Shown: in pieces, positions 30,094 to 35,563 of the stretch
Layout of the letters: each line of letters begins with the position of its first letter
How positions within the stretch are numbered: position 1 is the stretch's first letter
Assembly: GCA_019894955.1 (NCBI GenBank)
Contig: JAGXNQ010000012.1
Location: forward strand, 1-35,906
From: Promethearchaeota archaeon
GTDB taxonomy: Archaea; Asgardarchaeota; Lokiarchaeia; Sigyniarchaeales; SOKP01
DNA: 35,906 nucleotides
Reading direction: 5' to 3'
Made by a program: the position numbers and the translations under genes
Notes under the pieces: generated by a model
Databases searched by the model: none
Seen by the model: the letters and a program-made list of their open reading frames with translations, nothing else
Told to the model about the DNA's origin: nothing

Positions 30094-31128
30094 TTGCTAT
30101 CCAATATTTTTTTACTAAAAGGTAAAAATTTTCATGATTTGAATTCTCTAGATATCTATAGCTATCCAGATGATATCTTGAAGAATGGCGATAACGATTT
30201 TATAAGGAAAGTTATTTTTGGTCACGATCATGGTGCCATCGTAGAGAACTATCGTAACGATACTATGAATGAACATCACTCTTCAAATCAAAAAAAAAAT
30301 CTTGAATTGAATCAATTTGATCTAGATTGTCCTGTTCCTCAAGTTATTGACGGTCAAAATATTTATACATCTTGCATTAATTCAAAAATGATAATTGGAT
30401 TAATATTAGAAAAAGATGATAACCCTTATGATTATAAAGAGATTTTTCAAGATTTATCAAATGAAATGCTTAATAATGAAAGATGCTGCCAGTTTGAAGA
30501 TGAAATGGAGATTGAAAACTTTTTAATAACTCTTTTTATAGATATAAGGAGATATGGAGATGAATTTGTAGAAAGACCTGCTGAAATATCTTTCAAACCA
30601 ACAGGGATCTTTATAAAAGTTTTCTTATTCGGTATTGATGATGTTGGTAAAACATCTTTTGCACACCGAATTAAAACTGGAGAATTTATAGATAATTCTT
30701 TCACTCCAACCCGAAAATTTAATATTGAGTATATCCAAAAACAAAAAGGGTACTTAGCAATCTGGGATATGCCCGGACAACGTGCATTTAGAGAAAAATG
30801 GTTTAAAGGCATCCAAGATGCAAATATTATTATTTACATGATAGATGTTGCAAATCAATTGCGATTTGAAGAATCTAAGAGAGAATTTTGGAACTTTATA
30901 AATAAGCACGATTCTTCTGGAATCCCATTAATAATACTTGGAAATAAAACAGATCTTGTTAAAAAACCAGAAGAACAAGACAGTACTCTTATTAGGACAA
31001 AACAAGAAATTATGGATTTTTTTGAGCTTGATAAAATTAACGATCGAGAATATTTTTTCTTTTTTACGTCAGTAAAAACTAACTATAATATGAATGAGGT
31101 AATGAACACTCTTTTTAACACGATATAA
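30094..31128 (+). CDS. Arf/Ras-like small GTPase with N-terminal longin-like region
   Basis: 344 residues. GTPase motifs: G1 G180-I-D-D-V-G-K-T-S; G2 Thr in S-F-T-P-T-R; G3 W-D225-M-P-G-Q229; G4 N284-K-T-D; G5 T-S-V-K. The W-D-x-P-G-Q form is close to Arf/Rag-type enzymes, with the catalytic Gln kept. Residues 1-170 precede the G domain and include M-I-I-G-L-I-L-E followed by a long amphipathic helix (about 112-128), resembling a longin or roadblock alpha/beta module; the identity is tentative. TTG 30094 follows AGGA at 30083-30086. Such fusions fit Asgard eukaryote-like signalling or trafficking proteins. No lipidation motif is seen. Confidence 0.8.
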   Translation: MLSNIFLLKGKNFHDLNSLDIYSYPDDILKNGDNDFIRKVIFGHDHGAIVENYRNDTMNEHHSSNQKKNLELNQFDLDCPVPQVIDGQNIYTSCINSKMIIGLILEKDDNPYDYKEIFQDLSNEMLNNERCCQFEDEMEIENFLITLFIDIRRYGDEFVERPAEISFKPTGIFIKVFLFGIDDVGKTSFAHRIKTGEFIDNSFTPTRKFNIEYIQKQKGYLAIWDMPGQRAFREKWFKGIQDANIIIYMIDVANQLRFEESKREFWNFINKHDSSGIPLIILGNKTDLVKKPEEQDSTLIRTKQEIMDFFELDKINDREYFFFFTSVKTNYNMNEVMNTLFNTI

Positions 31129-31198: not shown

Positions 31199-31237
31199 CT
31201 ATTATAATAAATGAGATAAACCGAGTAAGTGCTCACA

Positions 31238-31834
31238 ATGTATAAAAGATTAAAAAAAGATATGAATATCAACATTGAAGAAAAGGATGGACAATTATTC
31301 TTAGGGGATAAAAAAAACGATATGCGCTTAGTAATGCTCCGACCCAATGAAATTATGGAATTTTGCGAATTCACTGGTACAAATGCAGAAGATATTCTGA
31401 GTTGGGTCGGAAAAACTCTCGGAAAGAGTTTAATGGAACAATTCTTCCATAATAAGGATTGGAGTACTGAAACCCTAGCTGTAAGGAAAGAAGTGGTTCT
31501 TGGAACATTGGAAGCATTGATGCTCATGGGTTACGGTGCGTTGACCGGTCTCTTCAAAAAAGATCATATATTGATTAACGTTTATGGATCCTTAGCCCAA
31601 GAAGAAAAAGAAAATATCATGGCTAAAAATTTATGCGTTCTATATCTTGGAATATTCACGGGATTTTTAAGCGTGCTTGGAATTGAGACGGATGGAAAAG
31701 AAATTGAGTGCGTTTTAACGGGTGGCGAAAAATGTTCCTTTAAATTAGATTTTATCGGAGAAGAAATTGAAGATGGTTTAGTTGACCAAGATCCTTCAGA
31801 GGAAACGGTCGCTGAATTTTTAGCATCACTCTGA
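31238..31834 (+). CDS. V4R-domain protein (Bet3/TRAPP-related fold)
   Basis: About 198 residues from ATG 31238; GTG 31229 is an in-frame alternative, but the TATA element puts transcription start near 31230. The segment from about 90 to the end has V4R features: G-T-L-E-A-L-M-L-M-G-Y-G, Y-L-G-I-F-T-G-F-L-S-V-L-G, then E-C-V-L-T-G-G-E-K-C-S-F-K-L-D-F, whose C-x(8)-C-x-F spacing is characteristic. V4R domains share the fold of the TRAPP subunit Bet3 and in prokaryotes bind small ligands or metals. The location directly after the longin-like GTPase suggests a shared task; this is inference. Confidence 0.75.
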   Translation: MYKRLKKDMNINIEEKDGQLFLGDKKNDMRLVMLRPNEIMEFCEFTGTNAEDILSWVGKTLGKSLMEQFFHNKDWSTETLAVRKEVVLGTLEALMLMGYGALTGLFKKDHILINVYGSLAQEEKENIMAKNLCVLYLGIFTGFLSVLGIETDGKEIECVLTGGEKCSFKLDFIGEEIEDGLVDQDPSEETVAEFLASL

Positions 31835-31892
31835 ATTAAATATTCTGAACTTTCTTTCTCACCACTTTAATAGGGTTTACAAACGCCTTTCC

Positions 31893-31912
31893 CTTATAAA
31901 AAGTTTTATAAG
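31893..31912 (+). promoter_or_regulatory. Promoter of the leu operon (TATA inside a 9-bp inverted repeat)
   Basis: CTTATAAAA and TTTTATAAG form a perfect inverted repeat around AG, and contain a strong archaeal TATA sequence (31895-31902). A start about 25 bases downstream falls near 31925-31935, leaving roughly 30 bases before the leader ORF at 31961. The symmetry may itself be an operator. The 317-base space between the V4R gene and leuA is filled by this promoter, the leader ORF and the structure at 32065-32114. Confidence 0.5.
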
Positions 31913-31960
31913 TGTACTTAAATTCACTTTTTAATACATAATATTAAAAGGATTTTAATT

Positions 31961-32062
31961 TTGCTGATTCAAAAAACTACGAAAACTGAATCTTGGAATT
32001 CATTTATGCAATTTTATCCCTTTTTATTATTATTGTTGAATCTACTCTTGTTATTGCGATAA
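31961..32062 (+). CDS. leuL: Leucine-rich leader peptide upstream of leuA
   Basis: A 33-codon ORF starting with TTG 31961, preceded by AAAAGGAT (31946-31953, eight bases from GGA to the start). An internal ATG at 32006 would give 18 codons with the same end. The C-terminal part reads P-F-L-L-L-L-L-N-L-L-L-L-L-R-stop: ten Leu codons among eleven, using TTA, TTG, CTA and CTC, so it is not a simple base repeat. The stop (32060-32062) lies 89 bases before leuA. This is the layout of a bacterial leu leader (E. coli leuL has four Leu codons), in which a ribosome short of Leu-tRNA stalls. No function in archaea is established. The gene symbol is by analogy. Confidence 0.65.
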   Translation: MLIQKTTKTESWNSFMQFYPFLLLLLNLLLLLR

Positions 32063-32064
32063 TC

Positions 32065-32114
32065 ACCCCTCTTTTACTGAAAAGAAGGAGATTTTTTCTC
32101 TTTGGGGGGGTTTT
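32065..32114 (+). terminator. Attenuator-like structure between the leader peptide and leuA
   Basis: ACCCCTCT (32065-32072), beginning three bases after the leader stop, can pair with the G7-T at 32104-32111 to make eight pairs (two G-U), followed by TTT. Inside it, AAGGAGA (32085-32091) can pair with TCTCTTT (32097-32103), one G-U, around a T-rich loop. A T6 run (32092-32097) is the kind of tract that ends archaeal transcription. A G7 run is very rare in this AT-rich window. Folding energies were not computed. Confidence 0.4.
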
Positions 32115-32151
32115 GTATAAAAATTAATGAATCAAATATAGGTAGGAAAAA

Positions 32152-33768
32152 ATGGAAAAAAACAGCAATATAAATGTTTCACAAATAATGGCGGAAATTC
32201 GAGACTCACTTACTCTTCCAGATAAAGCATATTTTTTTGATACAACACTCCGTGACGGTGAACAAACCCCTGGTATAAGCTTTACTCACGAAGAGAAAAA
32301 ATCTATTGCACAAACGCTAAATGAGATGAAAATTGATGTAATTGAAGCAGGATTTCCAGTTACTTCCAAAGGCGATTTTGAAGCATGTAAATCCATCTCT
32401 AAATTAGGATTAAATTCTGAAGTAATGGGATTAGCAAGAATGGCAAAACTTGATATAGATAAAGTGATTGAAGCCGATATGGATAGCATTCATCTTTTTA
32501 TCGCAACTTCAGATATACATCTTAAATCGAAACTTCAAATGAGCCAAGAAGAGGTAATACAACAAATTCAGAGGCATATTTCTTATGCAAAAGAACATTT
32601 TTCTACGATTTTGTTCTCAGCTGAAGACGCAACTCGTTCTGAAATTAATTACTTAATAAGAGCAAATATAACTGCAATTGAAAACGGAGCAACAAGGATA
32701 AATATTCCCGATACTGTAGGAACCATCTCACCAAAGGCATTTGGATACATGGTAAATAAAGTGTATAAAGCGATTCCAAAAGAAATTAGGATTGCAGTAC
32801 ATTGTCATAATGATTTTGGTCTAGCTGTTGCGAACACCATTGCGGGGTTCGAAAATGGCGCCTCTGAAGCGCAAACTACTATAATGGGATTAGGTGAACG
32901 CGCGGGGAATGCATCTTTCGAAGAAACAGCGATGTCATTATATGCGCTATATCAAATACCAATGAATATCATAACAACAAAGATATTTCCTACTGCTAAA
33001 CTTATTGAGAGTTATTGTGGTGGAAAGATTAAAATAGGACGACTCCAACCACTAATCGGACAGAATGCCTTTGCTCATGAAGCAGGAATTCATGCTCATG
33101 CGATGATAAGAAACGCGCGAACATACGAGCCAATTACTCCACAATTAATAGGAATAAACAGATCCGATAATGTTATAGATATCATTGAACAATCCATTAA
33201 ATTTGGGAAACATAGCGGAGGTCATGCGTTAAAAGCAAAATTAGAAGACTTAGGAATTAATTCTAACGAACATCAATTTGGTAAAATCATGACCCACATT
33301 AAAGAATTTGGTGATAAAGGACACGAAGTTTCCGAAGAAGATTTTTTAGCGATCGTTAAAGATGTGATGGGAGAAATTCCTGAAGAAGAACAACATGTAA
33401 TCCTTGAAGAATTAACAGTTTTAACGGGTTCTATAACTCCTACTTCAACCGTGCGCTTGAAAATAAGAAATGGAGATTTCATTGAAAAAGTTGCTTCTTC
33501 GGTGGGCGTTGGCGCAGTTGATGCATCAGTAAAAGCAATTGTAAAATGTTTTAAACCTATGAGCAACATCAAGCTTTTGAATTTCCAACTTGATGCGATC
33601 ACTGGAGGAACTGAAGCTTTAGGACATGTGACCATCGAAATTTTAGATATTGAAAGTAAAACCATAGTTAAAACAAGCGCCACTCATGAAGATATTGTGA
33701 TGTGTTCGGTTTTAGCTCTGATAAAAGGATTGAATCTTATAGCTAAGAAAATTAAAAATATTGACTGA
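32152..33768 (+). CDS. leuA: 2-isopropylmalate synthase (LeuA type)
   Basis: 538 residues. The DRE-TIM barrel has D30-T-T-L-R-D-G-E-Q-T-P-G, the metal-binding H-C-H-N-D-F-G and G-L-G-E-R-A-G-N-A-S. A C-terminal regulatory domain of about 140 residues (T-S-T-V-R-L-K ... G-G-T-E-A-L-G-H-V-T-I-E-I) is the LeuA-type feedback domain, absent from homocitrate synthases of the short type. It condenses acetyl-CoA with 2-oxoisovalerate as the first step of leucine synthesis. Citramalate synthase (isoleucine) is the main alternative from sequence alone; the Leu-rich leader favours LeuA. GGTAGG at 32141-32146 is the ribosome-binding site. Confidence 0.85.
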   Translation: MEKNSNINVSQIMAEIRDSLTLPDKAYFFDTTLRDGEQTPGISFTHEEKKSIAQTLNEMKIDVIEAGFPVTSKGDFEACKSISKLGLNSEVMGLARMAKLDIDKVIEADMDSIHLFIATSDIHLKSKLQMSQEEVIQQIQRHISYAKEHFSTILFSAEDATRSEINYLIRANITAIENGATRINIPDTVGTISPKAFGYMVNKVYKAIPKEIRIAVHCHNDFGLAVANTIAGFENGASEAQTTIMGLGERAGNASFEETAMSLYALYQIPMNIITTKIFPTAKLIESYCGGKIKIGRLQPLIGQNAFAHEAGIHAHAMIRNARTYEPITPQLIGINRSDNVIDIIEQSIKFGKHSGGHALKAKLEDLGINSNEHQFGKIMTHIKEFGDKGHEVSEEDFLAIVKDVMGEIPEEEQHVILEELTVLTGSITPTSTVRLKIRNGDFIEKVASSVGVGAVDASVKAIVKCFKPMSNIKLLNFQLDAITGGTEALGHVTIEILDIESKTIVKTSATHEDIVMCSVLALIKGLNLIAKKIKNID

Positions 33769-35051
33769 TGAAAAGTATGGGTTTAACAATTACAGAGAAA
33801 ATTTTAAGAGACCATTGTCAGAATAAAAAAGCCGTCGCTGGGGATTTTATCATGCCAAAAGTCGATAAATGTTTGGCTAACGATATTACTGCTCCCATAG
33901 CCATAGAAGTATTTGAAAATGTTATTGAAGGTTCTGGAGTTGGAGTTTTTGACCCCTCTAAAATCATATTAATCCCTGACCATTTTACTCCAAATAAAGA
34001 TGTAGCTTCTGCTATTCAGTGCAAAATCCTCAGAGATTTTTCATCCAAATACAATATTATTAACTATTTTGAAGTTGGAAGAGGAGGCATTGAACATTGC
34101 CTAGTACCAGAACAAGGATTAGTGAAACCTGGAGAAGTTTTTATAGGGGCTGATTCTCATACGTGCACATATGGTGCACTTGGGGCGTTTTCAATAGGTG
34201 TTGGATCTACAGATTTAGGTGTTGCTATGGCGTTAGGAAAATGTTGGCTTAAAATCCCAGAATCTATTAAGTTCGTTTATTCTGGTAGATTAAATAAATG
34301 GGTTTCTGGAAAAGACTTGATATTATATACAATAGGGAAGATTGGAGTAGATGGCGCCACATATAAAGCAATGGAATTTGCTGGTGATGCAATTAAAGTT
34401 TTACCGATGGCAGATCGTTTTACCATGTGTAATATGGCTATAGAAGCTGGCGGAAAATGTGGAATAATAGAACCAGATGAGATCACCAAATCATATTTGG
34501 ATTCTTTTAAAAATTTGAATGATGGTTTCTATTGTAGTGATAAAGATGCTGAATATTCTGATATTATAGATTTTGAATGTGCTAATATAGAACCACAGAT
34601 TGCTCTTCCTCATTCTCCGGATAATGTTAAATCAATTTCAGAAGTACACAACATGAAAATTGAATTAGATCAAGTAGTCATAGGTTCATGCACAAATGGT
34701 CGGCTTGTAGATTTAAAAAATGTGGCTGAAATTCTTAATAATCATAAAATTAATAAAAAGTTGAGATGCATAATAATCCCAGGAACTCAAAATATATACC
34801 TTAAAGCAATGAAAAGCGGATATATTGAGAGTTTCATTAACGCGGGTGCAATAGTATCAACTCCTACTTGCGGACCTTGTCTAGGGGGTCATATGGGAGT
34901 CTTAGCTGAAGGAGAGAAAGCGTTATCCACGACGAATAGAAACTTCCAAGGGAGAATGGGACACATTACAAGCGAGATTTATTTATCCAGTCCCATAGTG
35001 GCAGCTGCTTCAGCGATAAAAGGGTATATAACCTCCCCAGAGTATTTATAA
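33768..35051 (+). CDS. leuC: 3-isopropylmalate dehydratase large subunit
   Basis: 427 residues, archaeal-size LeuC. The three 4Fe-4S cysteines are in G-S-C-T-N-G and T-C-G-P-C-L-G-G; G-A-D-S-H-T-C-T-Y-G-A-L-G and the C-terminal G-R-M-G-H are aconitase-family blocks. With LeuD it isomerises 2- to 3-isopropylmalate. The ATG shares its A with the leuA stop (TGATG), indicating tight coupling. Homoaconitase or citraconate-type activity is possible in this family; operon context favours leucine. Confidence 0.9.
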   Translation: MKSMGLTITEKILRDHCQNKKAVAGDFIMPKVDKCLANDITAPIAIEVFENVIEGSGVGVFDPSKIILIPDHFTPNKDVASAIQCKILRDFSSKYNIINYFEVGRGGIEHCLVPEQGLVKPGEVFIGADSHTCTYGALGAFSIGVGSTDLGVAMALGKCWLKIPESIKFVYSGRLNKWVSGKDLILYTIGKIGVDGATYKAMEFAGDAIKVLPMADRFTMCNMAIEAGGKCGIIEPDEITKSYLDSFKNLNDGFYCSDKDAEYSDIIDFECANIEPQIALPHSPDNVKSISEVHNMKIELDQVVIGSCTNGRLVDLKNVAEILNNHKINKKLRCIIIPGTQNIYLKAMKSGYIESFINAGAIVSTPTCGPCLGGHMGVLAEGEKALSTTNRNFQGRMGHITSEIYLSSPIVAAASAIKGYITSPEYL

Positions 35052-35059
35052 AATAAAAA

Positions 35060-35563
35060 ATGAGATTGAAAATGATTGGAAAAGTAATTAAATATAACTT
35101 GAAAAATATTAATACTGATTTAATTATTCCTGCTAGATATCTAATTAATTCAGATGAACAGTTTTTAGCAGCGCACTGCATGGAGGATTTAGATCGCGAT
35201 TTTGTAGAAAAAGTCAAAAAAGAAAATTTTCAAATCCTAGTCACGGACTCTAATTTTGGATGTGGTTCAAGTAGAGAGCAAGCCCCTTCTGCGATAAAAG
35301 CTTCAGGAATAGCATGTATCATCGCACCTTCTTTTGCAAGGATATTTTTTAGAAATGCTATCAATATTGGTTTGCCGATAATCGAATTTCCCGAGATTGA
35401 AAGGATAAGAACAGGTGATATTTTAAATATCCAATTTGAGGAAGGAATAATTAAAAATACCTCCAATGATGAAGAATTTCAAATTAAAAAACAATCCGAC
35501 TTTCTACAGCAAATAATTTCTGCTGGAGGTTTGATTAATTTTGCTCGAAAGCAAATAAAGTAG
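35060..35563 (+). CDS. leuD: 3-isopropylmalate dehydratase small subunit
   Basis: 167 residues, the swivelling domain of the aconitase family: N-T-D-L-I-I-P-A-R-Y-L-I-N at the N-terminus, then F-G-C-G-S-S-R-E-Q-A-P, and I-I-A-P-S-F-A-R-I-F-F-R-N-A. The substrate loop reads Y-L-I-N; from memory, homoaconitase-type small subunits carry Arg in this loop (Y-L-R-T), so the hydrophobic Ile fits isopropylmalate. It starts eight bases after leuC; an ATG at 35072 is an alternative. leuB is not in the window. Confidence 0.88.
   Translation: MRLKMIGKVIKYNLKNINTDLIIPARYLINSDEQFLAAHCMEDLDRDFVEKVKKENFQILVTDSNFGCGSSREQAPSAIKASGIACIIAPSFARIFFRNAINIGLPIIEFPEIERIRTGDILNIQFEEGIIKNTSNDEEFQIKKQSDFLQQIISAGGLINFARKQIK

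Follow-up and report, generated by a model that had tools for sequence, protein, structure and literature searches.

A conserved leucine-codon leader ORF upstream of leuACD in Lokiarchaea as a likely ribosome-mediated attenuator

The bacterial leuL, trpL and hisL attenuators are the closest described counterparts of the locus considered here, sharing with it a short ORF supplied with a Shine-Dalgarno (SD) sequence, a run of codons for the cognate amino acid, the position in the leader of the matching operon, hairpins beside this leader and the occurrence of the scheme for three amino acids within one lineage. The archaeal locus differs from them in its host, in the Leu and His control codons running up to the stop, in a post-stop hairpin devoid of a U-tract (Leu leaders) and of a supported antiterminator, and in one more hairpin closing over the SD of the leader itself. 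Polycysteine leader ORFs of mycobacteria (Canestrari et al., 2020, cited in PMC9094748 and PMC9031893; these leaders and the missing terminators are described in PMC1262725) likewise carry cognate codons near the uORF stop without a conserved intrinsic terminator (PMC9094748, PMC9031893, PMC1262725), but they are bacterial, reported to be leaderless and Cys-specific, while post-stop and SD-closing hairpins are undescribed for them in the literature searched. Translational attenuators of the ermC/cat type also rely on a leader ORF whose ribosome position would alter mRNA structure; there, however, the downstream SD is sequestered, whereas here pairing of the leuA SD is unsupported. Finally, the actinobacterial LEU element (PMC1262725), likewise a structured RNA that includes Leu codons and lies upstream of leuA, contains a conserved pseudoknot involving the leuA SD, and its leucine codons are reportedly irrelevant; in our case it is the Leu codons that are conserved, and the leuA SD is free. 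For archaea, no amino-acid leader attenuator was found in the literature searched, though most subscription papers lay outside this search and the absence is unproven; a 2021 paper stated that none was known by then, and a paper of 2023 describing a software tool remarks broadly that attenuation of genes by uORFs extends to archaea, with no example found (PMC10219788). Rho is not known to occur in archaea, and archaea use FttA. The kind of system is thus familiar from bacteria, and its likely novelty lies in the archaeal host, the gate hairpin, the hairpin abutting the stop and the missing terminator.

The window, by which we mean the whole analysed stretch of 35,906 nucleotides, contains leuA followed by leuC and a gene of leuD type (Table 1), and its leuA is 88-90% identical to the best outside matches, which are 'Candidatus Lokiarchaeota' contigs; the host is a lokiarchaeon. 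The distance from the stop codon of the leader to the leuA ATG at 32152 is 89 nt. Codons of the Leu run, in order TTA TTA TTA TTG TTG AAT CTA CTC TTG TTA TTG, specify leucine at 10 of 11 positions by mixed synonymous triplets. Within the run, Leu codons are used much as in the genes of the window (mostly TTA), so the run is not made of rare codons. When the 317-nt upstream region was shuffled, 10 Leu in 12 codons were reached in 1 of 20,000 trials, and on this basis, together with the mixing of codons, chance or a slippage repeat was rejected as the source of the run.

Table 1. Features of the leader-leuACD locus (positions in the window)
Feature	Position	Strand	Basis and remarks
TATA-like promoter element TTTTATAAG of the leader-leuACD transcript	31904-31912	+	Conserved in relatives
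Hairpin A	31930-32040	+	5'UTR and leader SD (31930-31951) pair with 32020-32040, leader SD with 32020-32026; fold, arm-swap test, covariation map
Leader Shine-Dalgarno AAAAGGA	31946-31952	+	Sequence; same place in relatives; 8 nt before TTG
Leader peptide ORF	31961-32062	+	TTG start, 33 codons and TAA stop (32060-32062); product MLIQKTTKTESWNSFMQFYPFLLLLLNLLLLLR
Leucine codon run (proposed stall sites)	32024-32056	+	Codons 22-32 of the leader
Hairpin B	32065-32111	+	-17.8 kcal/mol; begins 2 nt past the stop of the leader; 5' arm rich in pyrimidines, 3' arm in purines
leuA Shine-Dalgarno region AGGTAGGA	32140-32147	+	No covariation-supported pairing with the leader
leuA, 2-isopropylmalate synthase	32152-33768	+	NF002085 above cut-off, LeuA_dimer domain
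leuC, 3-isopropylmalate dehydratase large subunit	33768-35051	+	TIGR02083 above cut-off
leuD-type small subunit	35060-35563	+	TIGR02087 above cut-off

Conservation was assessed using LeuA orthologues gathered from 58 relatives, from the entire family, from the order and from GTDB contigs. Restricted to LeuA identity above 60%, this set provided 34 distinct leuA upstream regions, belonging to the same family or to a single neighbouring one. The leader is kept at the same place in 33 of these 34 regions, comprising 32-39 codons with 6-12 Leu among the last 14 (median 10); it starts approximately 190-207 nt and stops approximately 90-107 nt before leuA, a few spacers being longer, and its SD takes the form of AAGGGAT or AAGGAAT among relatives. 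The TTG start of the window aligns with ATG in four close relatives (L004, L007, L009 and L010). No frameshift within the Leu run was detected among relatives, the only event of this sort being a whole-codon deletion (L008/L010). All nine genera of family f1 having this leuA possess the leader, as do two of the three genomes of family f2 with readable upstreams, while no Leu leader was found in leuA upstreams of families f3 and f4, of other orders of the class or of other Asgard classes. The Leu-rich leader is thereby confirmed, and much more strongly than the single window suggests. The sole close LeuA relative without it is L023 (G048, family f2, genus g16), for which no replacement was found.

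Pairwise changes among five aligned leaders within the genus were used for dN/dS-like ratios. The N-terminal part of the peptide accumulated 35 synonymous and 132 nonsynonymous changes (ratio 0.87), whereas the Leu run accumulated 42 and 10, respectively (0.07). Over the last 12 codons of all leaders, leucine makes up 94% of L+I+V+M+F, compared with 22% in LeuA itself. Since the ratios diverge to such an extent and leucine is so strongly preferred to other hydrophobic residues, selection acts on the Leu codons and not on hydrophobicity or the rest of the peptide; within the genus only Leu codons are held at the amino-acid level. Such confined selection is what one would predict for a run read out through the supply of Leu-tRNA, which is an inference from sequence.

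In most relatives a TATA-like box is placed 52-59 nt before the leader. In 28 of 33 relatives, as opposed to 6.9 expected from shuffles, the motif TTTWWAA precedes the leader start by 38-64 nt, and the BRE+TATA-like form occupies the same position in 19 (1.0 expected), whereas in the matching region before leuA, taken as a control, the numbers are 4 and 0. Because the conserved TATA-like element is upstream of the leader, the leader and leuA belong to one transcript, for which a start near 31932-31936 is predicted from standard archaeal spacing, no 5'-end data being at hand. Another candidate promoter, TATAAAAA near 32116 between the leader and leuA, was rejected as it is not conserved among relatives.

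RNAalifold, given a MAFFT alignment, found no structure in the post-stop hairpin, since divergence is too high for the sequences to be aligned as such; for this reason an alignment-free arm-swap test was adopted, in which the duplex energy of the species' own two arms is compared with that of arms exchanged between species. It was complemented by a covariation map that covers the entire leader by 400 window pairs and assumes no structure; this map yields two hairpins only, A and B. In hairpin A the 3' side reaches up to and includes the first Leu codons; the 5'UTR and SD against codons 17-29 gave -14.4 kcal/mol for own arms and -9.1 for swapped ones (p=0.0002, the floor of the test), compared with p=0.51 for a control segment lying just upstream. 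The map assigns z -6.2 to the pairing of UTR/SD with the first Leu codons and z -5.3 to an inner helix formed by codons 1-6 and 13-21. Hairpin B occurs in 33 of 33 relatives; it begins 0-5 nt (median 2) downstream of the leader stop, has a median span of 54 nt and ends at a median of 38 nt before leuA. Compared with dinucleotide shuffles it has a mean z of -3.3 (-0.12 for control segments), its arms pair at -14.3 kcal/mol if own and -9.5 if swapped (p=0.0005, again the floor), and its values in the map are z -8.7 and -8.1. Taken singly, the folds of the window are not significant (z -1.8 for A and -1.4 for B), and it is the comparative evidence that carries both hairpins. As a separate observation, the arm polarity of hairpin B (pyrimidine-rich 5', purine-rich and SD-like 3') recurs in 32 of 33 cases, and a plain terminator stem needs none.

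In Leu leaders the longest T-run after hairpin B is 2-5 nt and is not conserved, so an intrinsic U-tract terminator was rejected although the hairpin itself is present. A classical 2:3 antiterminator reached p=0.03 in one arm-swap test and z -3.3 in the map; the best alternative pairings scored z -3.3 and -3.2, the largest positive value among 289 such tests was +3.6, and we judged this candidate to lie within the noise. Neither arm-swap tests of leuA SD pairing (R3:SD, p=0.79; R4:SD, p=0.79) nor the map windows at leuA, which show no covariation with any leader segment, support sequestration of this SD by the leader, though weak static pairing with the invariant AGGT remains possible. No match near the gathering score was obtained in 31800-32300 for Rfam leader or riboswitch families, T-box included.

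A preliminary description of this locus, made before any comparison, had claimed a Leu-rich ORF with an SD before leuA, with synonymous codons varied too much for a slippage repeat and a C-rich/G7 stem beyond the stop. All this held, every coordinate checked was correct, and the stem (32065-32111) proved significant by comparison and not from the window alone; the leuA assignment held as well. It had proposed to verify whether the ORF is kept in relatives with leuA, which is the case (33/34), and named frameshifts in it or a transcription start downstream of 32062 as grounds for refutation: the former are absent from the Leu run (one whole-codon deletion), and the latter is unsupported given the conserved promoter upstream of the leader, with the reservation that 5'-end data are lacking. 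What did not hold concerns the likeness to the bacterial layout, as the T-rich tracts exist in the window but failed the conservation test and no terminator/antiterminator pair of bacterial type was found.

Leaders for other amino acids were revealed in the same lineage. Trp leaders with the ending W-x-W-x-W-x-W-H-(A/V/E)-stop (TWFWAWRWHA-stop, for example) were recognized in eight genomes of the same family, mostly before trp operons (loci L151-L158, respectively in G061, G035, G027, G062, G026, G063, G084 and G085), with 6 of 8 adjoining trpE or trpA-trpE. The reversed-pattern control of the Trp pattern search gave about as many matches, and the 8 of 16 matches located outside f1 were discarded as chance, judging by context. 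In most of the eight, a stem CGUUG GCACG / CGUGC CAAUG overlaps the final part of the Trp leader together with its stop codon, and a T6-T8 tract precedes the next gene in 7 of 8, which is suggestive only. The second ORF downstream of the leader in L151 possibly encodes TrpD, as judged from sequence. In L158 (G085), on the minus strand past position 1527, a Trp leader is followed by no ORF of at least 70 codons in the 1.5 kb downstream and may be an orphan or the remnant of a decayed operon.

His leaders are situated just before hisIE-hisG in five genomes (L115, L116, L117, L120 and L121), approximately 1.02-1.04 kb upstream of hisG, and end with LHHWLHHE, VHHWLHH, HFHHHQHHE, HHWHYHL or HHLHHK before the stop; the identity of HisIE is backed by a family search for L115. 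Their stop is immediately followed by a covarying stem such as TTCCGATGAAT/ATTCATCGGAA, whose version in L120 is altered yet complementary, and their His codons pair with an upstream segment. Among minor observations, a second stem and a GGGGG SD come after the first stem in His leaders, and the first stem of L120 has a 5' arm seemingly able to pair with the SD of hisIE. Neither cognate leaders nor comparable features were found in the upstreams of ilvC, ilvD and pheA, so the Trp and His leaders are no by-product of AT-rich intergenic DNA. The preliminary forecast of Trp- and His-type leaders in this lineage was fulfilled, while of the Ile-rich leaders it suggested before ilv none was seen upstream of ilvC and ilvD. 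Among the arguments for sensing by translation, none is stronger than the agreement between amino acid and pathway in three cases, inferred from sequence alone.

We consider it likely that leuACD in Lokiarchaea is controlled by a leucine-responsive ribosome-mediated attenuator. Sequence comparison establishes the conserved ORF, selection on its Leu codons, the position of the promoter and hairpins A and B, whereas translation of the leader, stalling, the direction of the response and the output are inferred in the absence of expression data. In the proposed scheme a leader-leuA transcript would originate from the single upstream promoter, and a ribosome would begin the leader before hairpin A closes over its SD. 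With ample Leu-tRNA it would cross the Leu run, mask the 5' arm of hairpin B at the stop and depart, upon which hairpin A would close and preclude another round of leader translation; the RNA ahead of leuA would then be ribosome-free and leuACD expression low. With Leu-tRNA scarce, the ribosome would stall on the Leu codons at the end of the 3' arm of hairpin A, holding A open because the first Leu codons belong to this arm and keeping ribosomes on the leader; B would be left free to fold since the leader stop is not yet reached, and leuACD would be expressed. It is possible that B also folds after ribosome release, and in that event B alone could not tell the two states apart.

As the output we prefer that archaeal FttA terminates transcription prematurely on leader RNA free of ribosomes, an inference that may with comparable chances prove right or wrong. 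FttA/aCPSF1 is held responsible for polarity in archaea (PMC12548453), is encoded in the genome of the window and in 12 of 12 relatives tested, and would be the natural archaeal reader of ribosome-free RNA. The preliminary description had left the mechanism unsettled, pointing to the masked 5' arm and to either blocking of FttA or changed access to leuA; attenuation as such is now supported and the output is undecided. A bolder reading, more doubtful than not in our opinion, assumes general Asgard ribosome-mediated attenuation for Leu, Trp and His with an architecture unknown in bacteria, in which a gate hairpin over the leader SD would be opened by the stalled ribosome, another hairpin would abut the leader stop, and the CPSF73-like termination factor FttA would provide the readout in place of a hairpin terminator or Rho.

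The main alternative to FttA-dependent output, somewhat less likely than not, is an effect of the leader on leuA translation or on the stability of the mRNA, with the ribosome position altering how readily ribosomes or RNases reach the leuA start region. The absence of a conserved terminator U-tract from Leu leaders, the placement of hairpin B between the leader stop and leuA, and its purine-rich SD-like 3' arm (32/33), which could serve as a standby site, speak in its favour. Against it stand the lack of covariation-supported pairing of the leuA SD or start with any leader segment and the spacing: in E. coli and H. volcanii termination-reinitiation coupling weakens once the distance exceeds 30-40 nt (PMC12548453), which makes such a transfer from the leader to leuA unlikely over a gap of approximately 90 nt.

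The remaining explanations dispense with leucine sensing by translation. If the RNA structure itself were the regulator, as a protein- or ligand-binding element with an incidental ORF, the two covarying hairpins would be accounted for; this is highly improbable in view of codon-level selection confined to Leu codons, the excess of Leu over I, V, M and F in the last 12 codons (94%), cognate Trp and His runs at trp and his operons, and no match to an Rfam family. Hydrophobicity of the Leu-rich stretch might point to a functional small membrane peptide, an even more remote prospect, as the N-terminal part drifts neutrally (0.87), Leu is hardly ever replaced by Ile, Val, Phe or Met, the run is interrupted by Asp, Asn, Glu, Ser and Arg, and the Trp and His leaders form no hydrophobic helices. 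A chance Leu run, or a leuA promoter downstream of the leader at the TATA-like string near 32116, could be invoked given the AT-rich upstream region and the presence of this string before leuA in the window, but both are practically eliminated by the shuffling result (1/20,000), by conservation of the leader across two families and by a TATA-like element conserved before the leader and not before leuA.

If leader peptides are indeed fitted to three biosynthetic pathways within one archaeal lineage, archaeal ribosomes and the eukaryote-like RNA polymerase would be coupled closely enough for control by amino-acid supply, or else the ribosome position on the leader would be read in some other way, and both archaeal transcription-translation coupling and FttA-dependent control would become directly testable at defined loci in Lokiarchaea, the archaeal relatives of the eukaryotic lineage. 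The SD sequences carried by both the leader and leuA deserve attention, since Lokiarchaea reportedly seldom possess such sequences (PMC12993045).

Two further observations concern the surroundings of leuA. In other families of the class (L024, L027, L030 and L032) a distinct short element, GGAT..GTTCTC, lies approximately 110-160 nt before leuA and is readable as the tiny ORFs MDRVLCYS, MWDCVLCPGSTK, MRDSVLKVR and MGYRVLNN, each ending with a stop; possibly it represents another type of leader. In the window itself, the genes preceding leuA on the same strand encode a protein with weak V4R-domain or MsvR-like similarity (31229-31834) and an Arf/Ras-like small GTPase (30094-31128), typical of Asgard genomes.
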